Assembly (NCBI RefSeq): GCF_016595435.1
Contig: NZ_JAENIJ010000001.1
Coordinates: forward strand, 1-64,000
Reading direction: 5' to 3'
Source: Luteolibacter pohnpeiensis
GTDB lineage: Bacteria; Verrucomicrobiota; Verrucomicrobiia; Verrucomicrobiales; Akkermansiaceae
DNA: 64,000 bases
Positions within the stretch are counted from its first letter, which is position 1. Each line of letters starts with the position of its first letter. Shown here piece after piece: positions 17,762 through 19,082 of this stretch. Both the position numbers and the translations under genes were made by a program. The notes under the pieces are model-generated. The model was not told the origin of the DNA. It searched no databases and saw nothing but the letters and a program-made list of their open reading frames with translations.

Positions 17762-18460
17762 TTAATTTTCCTCTTCTGCAGCGACTTCATCGCCGTCGTC
17801 TGCAGACTCTTCATCCGAATCGTCGATCGAATCATCGTCGAACTCTTCGGAATCATCATCGAAATCGTCTTCTTCCATCAGTTCACCGTGGAACAGCTGG
17901 AATTTGCGTTTGCGCTGATGGGCAGGGAGTGGGGAAAGAATCATGGCAACGGCGCGGCCGTTCAAGCGTGGTGCTTGGTCGACTTGGGCCATGGTTTTCA
18001 AATCTTCGACAATGCGGTTGAGAACCACGAAACCGAGATCCTTGTGGGCATTTTCACGGCCGCGGAACTGGAGCACGAAGCGGACCTTGTGGTTGCTGTC
18101 GAGGAAGCCCTCGGCGCGACCGAGCTTGATGTTGTAGTCGTGCTGGCCGGTTCCGACGCGGAATTTGACTTCCTTCATCTTGGTTGCAGCCTTCGACTTT
18201 TGCTTCTTTAGCTTGGCCTGTTCGTATTTATATTTCCCGTAGTCAATGATCTTACAAACGGGAGGATCCGCCTGGCCGGCGATTTCCACGAGGTCCAGTC
18301 CGATCGACTGGGCTTTCATCAAGGCGTCCCGGGTGCTGAGCACTCCGAGCTGTTCGCCGTTGGCGAGGACGACGCGCACTCTTGGGGCGCGGATGCGGTC
18401 GTTGATCCGCGTCATGTCGCGGAAACGGCCCCTGTTTTGGTCTCTTTTTGGCTTAGCTAT
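17762..18460 (-). CDS. infC: Translation initiation factor IF-3, apparent AUA start
   Basis: IF-3 binds the 30S subunit and checks start codons. The frame from 18460 gives 232 residues: a basic N-terminal tail, the N-domain with TRINDRIRAPRVRVV and KIIDYGKYKYEQAKLKKQ, and the C-domain with EVKFRVGTGQHDYNIKLG, KVRFVLQFRGRE and AVAMILSPL. About 40 Asp/Glu-rich residues follow. ATG at 18415 would remove 15 basic residues (AKPKRDQNRGRFRD). ATA at 18460-18458 is the only plausible upstream start, since an in-frame TAG sits at 18472-18470, and AGGA lies 7 nt ahead of it. Rare start codons on infC are known to allow self-control by IF-3. The acidic tail is longer than in E. coli IF-3. Confidence 0.93.
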   Translation of the reverse strand: MAKPKRDQNRGRFRDMTRINDRIRAPRVRVVLANGEQLGVLSTRDALMKAQSIGLDLVEIAGQADPPVCKIIDYGKYKYEQAKLKKQKSKAATKMKEVKFRVGTGQHDYNIKLGRAEGFLDSNHKVRFVLQFRGRENAHKDLGFVVLNRIVEDLKTMAQVDQAPRLNGRAVAMILSPLPAHQRKRKFQLFHGELMEEDDFDDDSEEFDDDSIDDSDEESADDGDEVAAEEEN

Positions 18461-18471
18461 GGCTTTGTCCT
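18458..18471 (-). promoter_or_regulatory. Shine-Dalgarno and AUA start of infC
   Basis: On the minus strand AGGA occupies 18471-18468, followed by 7 nt and then ATA at 18460-18458, in frame with IF-3. An in-frame TAG overlaps the Shine-Dalgarno sequence, so initiation cannot be further upstream. No comparable ribosome site precedes the ATG at 18415, where the preceding bases read GTTTCCGCGAC. The arrangement is what IF-3 autoregulation would require. Confidence 0.65.
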
Positions 18472-19082
18472 ATTTTGGTTGAATGCGACCCACCATGGCA
18501 CGTTCGGACAAGCCGCCGCAAAATGGTGCGAAGAAAAAATAAAAACGATCATCCGGGCACCAGATCATAAATCGGAGACAAATAAGCCCGACCGAACCAG
18601 GAGTCCGGTTTGAAAATTCATTACTGATCGTTCTTGGAAAGTCATCGGGCGGCTGGTGCCGGGGAGACGCGACGGGGGAAGTCAAAATGGGAATCAAGCT
18701 TCAGACCGCGCGTCTGAGGCCAAGTGTGTAAGGGCTGGCGAGCGAATCGGCAAGTCTCTTTTTACAGGGTGTTGAGAAGTGAAAGCTGAGACCGCGCGCG
18801 GTGGAAATCTGGATCGGGCAGTCACCGCGATGGCGTTCGTTGGCTTGGGAAGCGTTGCGCATGCCGAGAGCTGAATCGGAAGATGCTGCTTGGTACCTGT
18901 TTCAGCGAAGGTTCCTATTGAGGACGGTGAGGTGCAGACCCAACCAGCTTCAAGAAAGACGGTTCTGGAGGATCATGGGGGAACTTCTTGGCTTCTGAAA
19001 GTTCTGACTGAAAAGGGCAGGCGTGGAAATTTGACAAACTTTTGACACTTCTCCGACGCGACTTGGCTAGGTTTGAAGCCCT
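18461..19082. other. Divergent intergenic region between infC and the secretin-domain operon
   Basis: About 620 bases without a convincing gene. It must hold the infC promoter on one side and the promoter of the 19083 operon on the other. Visible elements are a 6-bp hairpin TCAGAC-CGCGC-GTCTGA at 18701-18717 and a perfect 12-bp palindrome ACCGCGCGCGGT at 18791-18802. Two TTGACA hexamers lie at 19031-19036 and 19042-19047, ahead of the start at 19083. No well-spaced -10 hexamer accompanies the TTGACA boxes. Short frames here have no protein-like features. I looked for tmRNA, RNase P and SRP RNA cores and saw none. Confidence 0.5.

Follow-up and report, generated by a model that had tools for sequence, protein, structure and literature searches.

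The window analysed here, a 64,000-nucleotide stretch of the Luteolibacter pohnpeiensis genome, carries on its minus strand infC, the gene for initiation factor IF-3 (IF3). The features of the gene and its start region were read as follows.

17762-18460, minus strand: infC coding sequence taken from the proposed AUA start, 232 aa plus stop; Pfam and TIGR00168 equivalog matches, single copy
18458-18460, minus strand: putative AUA initiation codon, the sole candidate between the TAG and the ATG, with homologous codons in relatives
18470-18472, minus strand: in-frame TAG closing the infC frame upstream
18468-18471, minus strand: Shine-Dalgarno (SD) core AGGA, 7 nt before the AUA and overlapping the TAG
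18416-18457, minus strand: basic N-terminal extension (AKPKRDQNRGRFRD), conserved; a gene caller choosing ATG 18415 would omit it
18413-18415, minus strand: first ATG, codon 16, read as an internal Met; without a well-spaced SD and replaced outside the genus

The infC product is a full IF3, with the Pfam domains IF3_N (19-87) and IF3_C (94-177) and a score of 194 bits against the NCBIfam infC equivalog TIGR00168 (cut-off 60). No second infC was found in the genome (4.67 Mb, 98.8% complete). Past the IF3_C domain the protein has an acidic C-terminal tail of about 50 residues (EEDDFDDDSEEFDDDS..., encoded at 17762-17928). The downstream neighbour is a HAD hydrolase gene, and rpmI and rplT are not in the infC operon, with rplT located on contig C77 and infC on C111. 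The same genome has two full-length matches to thrS (C232:43505-45301 and C174:4038-5714), each scoring above the family cut-off and neither adjoining infC.

On its 5' side the infC frame reads TAG (18472-18470) GAC AAA GCC ATA (18460-18458), and the start region on the minus strand is ccaaaaTAGGACAAAGCC-ATA-GCT-AAG-CCA-AAA-AGA-GAC-CAA-AAC-AGG-GGC-CGT-TTC-CGC-GAC-ATG. No ATG, GTG, TTG or CTG occurs in frame between the TAG at 18472 and the ATG at 18415. The first-pass annotation had placed the TAG, the ATA, the ATG and an AGGA seven bases ahead of the ATA at these positions, and re-reading of the minus strand gave the same coordinates. The spacer between AGGA and ATA (18467-18461, 7 nt) is normal for an SD sequence, and since the 3' end of this genome's own 16S rRNA is as expected (GGCTGGATCACCTCCT, anti-SD CCTCCT), the AGGA is able to pair with it. 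With AGGA alone, this gene has a weaker SD than most relatives, which have GGAGGA. A crude count, made on uncurated start positions, found a 4-nt SD core at 1 of 31 longest-ORF starts in the window, which suggests that few genes of this genome use an SD and that the conserved one at infC stands out. A lone ATA with AGGA ahead of it would be unimpressive by itself; its conservation in relatives lifts it above chance.

The homologous codon was compared across 52 loci of the same genus, where it was ATC in 33, ATA in 19 and nothing else. It nearly always follows GGAGGA(C/T) or AAGGAT and is followed by GCT AAG CCA. The proposal that infC starts at ATA, made earlier for this genome alone, gained support from all 52 loci, with ATC as the other codon in use. 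Codons 2-15 showed mostly silent or conservative changes in a codon table of 34 distinct genus sequences, with A-K-P and R-G-R-[FY]-R-D almost fixed, so that the basic N-terminus and the ATA/ATC codon proved to be conserved together. Neither a start at the equivalent of the ATG nor loss of the extension as protein was found across the 52 loci.

Initiation at ATG 18415, with the 15 codons ahead of it untranslated or rarely used, would make use of the first canonical start, which is conserved within the genus, and would give an N-terminus about as short as that of Thermus thermophilus IF3. The protein-level conservation of the 15-codon extension argues against it. Moreover, in sister lineages that retain a frame beginning at AUU, AUC or AUA (AUH), codon 16 is ACG, ACC, ATC, CAA or some other codon, and the only SD-like sequence upstream of the ATG is AGGGG, 13 nt away, whereas a well-spaced SD precedes the AUA. 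We regard initiation at the ATG as highly improbable. That the ATA or ATC encodes an Ile within a longer protein is hardly conceivable, even though in many genus members no stop interrupts the frame over some 30 codons or more upstream of it, since an in-frame stop lies within 8 codons in this genome and 30 other family loci, ATA is far too frequent at this position for an Ile codon, and the upstream stretch has no codon-position pattern in the frames tested. The stop-bounded loci make up 31 of the 99 Akkermansiaceae infC loci starting with ATA, ATC or ATT, and 30 of the 31 have no ATG, GTG, TTG or CTG between the stop and the AUH codon. ATA accounts for 22 of 890 Ile codons (2.5%) in the long ORFs of the window and for 2 of 510 inside infC of the genus, versus 19 of 52 at the start position (Fisher p ~1e-19, a value that ignores shared descent); the codon is thus not used here as an internal Ile codon would be. 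In this genome a longer protein from an upstream start is ruled out by the TAG at 18472, barring sequencing error. Taken together, the comparison indicates that the start codon of infC is almost certainly AUA.

We found the same codon class throughout most of the family. On a 107-row infC tree the starts were labelled ATA in 46 rows, ATC in 46, ATT in 1, GTG in 14 and ATG in none, so that ATA, ATC or ATT accounted for 93 of 107. Parsimony required at least 9 changes between ATA and ATC, of which the starred branches alone force about 4. GTG forms a single clade, Akkermansia, the only lineage on this tree to leave the AUH class; its start appears to be conserved as GTG (genus code g13; L066, L067, L163, L164, L167, L168, L170-L173, L175, L176, L179 and L182). 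AUU, a single transition away from AUC, is found in just one of the 107 rows, yet transversions between AUA and AUC recur; in the rest of the phylum, unlike in Akkermansiaceae, AUU is a common infC start. Among 63 loci outside the family (order, class and phylum), about 38 had ATT, ATC or ATA, 17 had ATG and 8 were ambiguous, a reading made by eye and reliable as a trend only. Acidobacteriota infC loci also appear to begin with ATC or ATA. Five loci of a sister genus in which thrS adjoins infC (L141, L142, L143, L145 and L148) have ATA or ATC starts without a recognisable SD sequence. The genomes of the relatives are mostly metagenome assemblies.

Aligned upstream regions of the relatives showed conserved blocks far upstream of the SD, in a region that the first-pass annotation did not mention. 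The following features were defined there.

18483-18646, minus strand: structured infC leader RNA of about 165 nt, delineated by covariance model R1 and by covariation on MAFFT alignments; no Rfam match
18627-18634, minus strand: helix A, 5' arm (AGAACGAT; relatives GGAACGAT), pairing with 18542-18549
18542-18549, minus strand: helix A, 3' arm (ATCGTTTT; relatives ATCGTTCC), with a G-C to A-U double change in this genome
18591-18609, minus strand: helix B hairpin, arms 18603-18609 and 18591-18597, inside helix A and at the former thrS stop position
18489-18530, minus strand: helix C, arms 18524-18530 and 18489-18495, between helix A and the SD
18600-18662, minus strand: probable thrS 3'-end relic, reading HQPPDDFPRTISNEFSNRTPG where sister species have KPLDDFIGTIREEIENRSL followed by a stop
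18726-18753, minus strand: putative promoter TTGCCG-16-TTACAC ahead of the leader, tentative; its cTTGc block is conserved in the genus

The promoter scored below threshold in a consensus promoter scan, which returned no site above it. The leader matched covariance model R1, built from 43 sequences that include the query itself, at 123.7 bits. Helix A joins GGAACGAT with ATCGTTCC about 80 nt apart; its inner six pairs were formed in 43 of 43 sequences, with double changes at 3 of the six. Double changes were found at 8 of 8 pairs in helix B and at 5 of 7 in helix C, where one position is unpaired in this genome. Over the three helices, 89.8% of cells were paired in the 43 sequences of two genera and 18 of 23 pairs had double changes. 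Double-change cells numbered 91 versus 25.5 in shuffles, none of which reached as high, and sliding the partners by 1-3 columns dropped pairing to 25-50%. An earlier covariation count, in which the helix ends were drawn generously, agreed with this. Helix A was proposed by eye from the sequences themselves and then counted, and the alignment left out the nine most divergent genus members and L019, where this helix has shifted or is difficult to locate; because both choices favour the paired percentage, the double changes carry more weight. The long-range helix A was not recovered by RNAalifold alone, and the folding energy of the leader is only mildly unusual (z -2.2). By its covariation, which supports the structure well, the leader is a real structured RNA.

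The covariance model found the leader in 72 of 215 family genomes at E <=0.1, with strong matches, beside infC, in two genera, that of the window and one sister genus (homologues L002-L055 and L129-L148). No convincing copies were found at other genes in the 215 genomes. Rfam searches of the 7 kb surrounding infC gave no match at E <=1, and those of the window and the loci of seven relatives gave none at gathering scores; a CsrC hit on L255 was sub-threshold and lay past the leader. No description of an infC leader in Verrucomicrobia was found in the literature searched, and the leader is apparently undescribed both there and in Rfam. Other candidate elements upstream of infC gained no support. 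A helix masking the SD (GGCTTGTCC with GGACAAAGCC) was good in this genome, but its covariation was not above shuffles. Two conserved-looking upstream ORFs, ATGATTT... and ATGATC..., were rejected as genes, since neither had a codon-position signal and ATGATC... changes frame in this genome.

In five sister-genus genomes, all outside the model-building set, the covariance model matched the end of thrS and the spacer to infC at 58-70 bits. The frame end, read directly in three of them, is ...RHRDKDDLGxxPLDDFIGTIxEEIxNRSL followed by the stop, and two frames that were checked match the anticodon-binding end of aminoacyl-tRNA synthetases, thrS being the best match. The thrS gene is intact beside infC in sister species and lies on other contigs, away from infC, in the genome of the window. 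In several species of the window's genus the thrS-derived stretch is out of frame or interrupted, as in HQPPDDFPRTISNEFSNRTPG here. From these comparisons the leader is best read as a relic of the thrS 3' end whose coding decayed and whose pairing outlived it. Its homology to the thrS 3' end plus spacer would equally be expected of a mere decaying thrS fragment without function of its own, but the base pairs were kept through double changes in about 40 species while the coding decayed, and helix A, one arm of which lies past the thrS stop codon, nonetheless forms in each of the 43 aligned sequences. We therefore consider a functionless fragment improbable.

The infC genes of E. coli and Streptomyces start with ATT and ATC respectively, and translational self-control by IF3 has been described (PMC5472188). 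In vitro, more IF3 gave less initiation on AUU read by a CAU anticodon (PMC10158994). We propose that infC of this genome is translated from the AUA at 18460 on an mRNA whose leader is the conserved structured RNA from the thrS-infC junction. The AUA would pair imperfectly with initiator tRNA, and IF3 would thereby destabilise the initiation complexes formed on infC mRNA, so that the AUA start would be rejected when free IF3 is abundant and used when it is scarce. By analogy, self-repression by IF3 is the likely purpose of the AUA start. The leader may in addition tune infC expression by affecting ribosome access or the stability of the mRNA, or by binding a protein, for instance IF3 or one of the ribosomal proteins, a role that we hold less firmly than self-repression. 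An effect on ribosome access is plausible because helix C stops some 17 nt short of the SD core, near the edge of the region that a 30S subunit would cover.

The AUH start might instead merely set a low, constant rate of IF3 synthesis, with no IF3 feedback in the phylum. Non-AUG starts cut yield to about one tenth in S. aureus reporters (PMC13009471), and infC starts with GUG or AUG in Akkermansia and Opitutales-like lineages; both observations would suit such a rate-setting role. However, the AUH class has been kept persistently, with repeated turnover between AUA and AUC and no drift to AUG, and this fits selection for codon discrimination at least as well, although as an argument against selection for low level alone it is not a strong one. 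We regard a constant low rate without feedback as unlikely. On balance, we think it probable that this infC starts at AUA, is subject to self-repression by IF3 and carries a conserved structured leader inherited from the thrS-infC junction. A further-reaching reading, held tentatively and with rather more doubt than belief, is that the leader is an undescribed cis-regulatory RNA that arose in the thrS 3' end and spacer, outlived the departure of thrS and works jointly with the AUA/AUC start in setting IF3 levels, perhaps as a binding site for IF3 or a ribosomal protein. AUH starts occur far beyond the range of the leader, so that the two need not be parts of one mechanism.

Gene callers limited to ATG, GTG and TTG shorten IF3 by 15 residues here, mis-start it in relatives, and would hide a control point at infC. 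Related species of the family, with AUA, AUC, AUU or GUG, form a natural series for assessing what start-codon discrimination is worth to the cell. The leader, for its part, appears to have persisted as an RNA element after the coding sequence that it overlapped had decayed.

The AUA start of infC adds to the known infC genes with AUH starts, and by its sequence the gene would belong with the E. coli type of infC that initiates at AUU, AUC or AUA. Compared to the autocontrolled infC of E. coli, it shares the IF3 gene itself, an AUH-class start behind an SD, and thrS as neighbour, the last still so in sister species; it differs in having AUA instead of AUU and in the location of thrS and rplT elsewhere, and feedback would apply here by analogy. 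The first-pass annotation had taken AUA as a fresh variant of IF3 control, but infC of S. aureus was already found to start at AUA by Ribo-Ret initiation profiling (PMC13009471). Gene and codon are the same in both, with the start assigned there by profiling and here by comparison; S. aureus belongs to another phylum and is reported to have extended SD motifs at its non-canonical starts, whereas this gene has just AGGA. Streptomyces infC (ATC), which is misannotated in most Streptomyces (PMC5472188), and Listeria infC (ATT; PMC13068326) likewise have AUH starts, with other codons and in other phyla. The L20 leader of infC-rpmI-rplT (Rfam L20_leader) is also a structured leader ahead of infC; unlike at that locus, the leader described here has no Rfam match, rplT lies on a different contig from infC, and the gene after infC encodes a HAD hydrolase.
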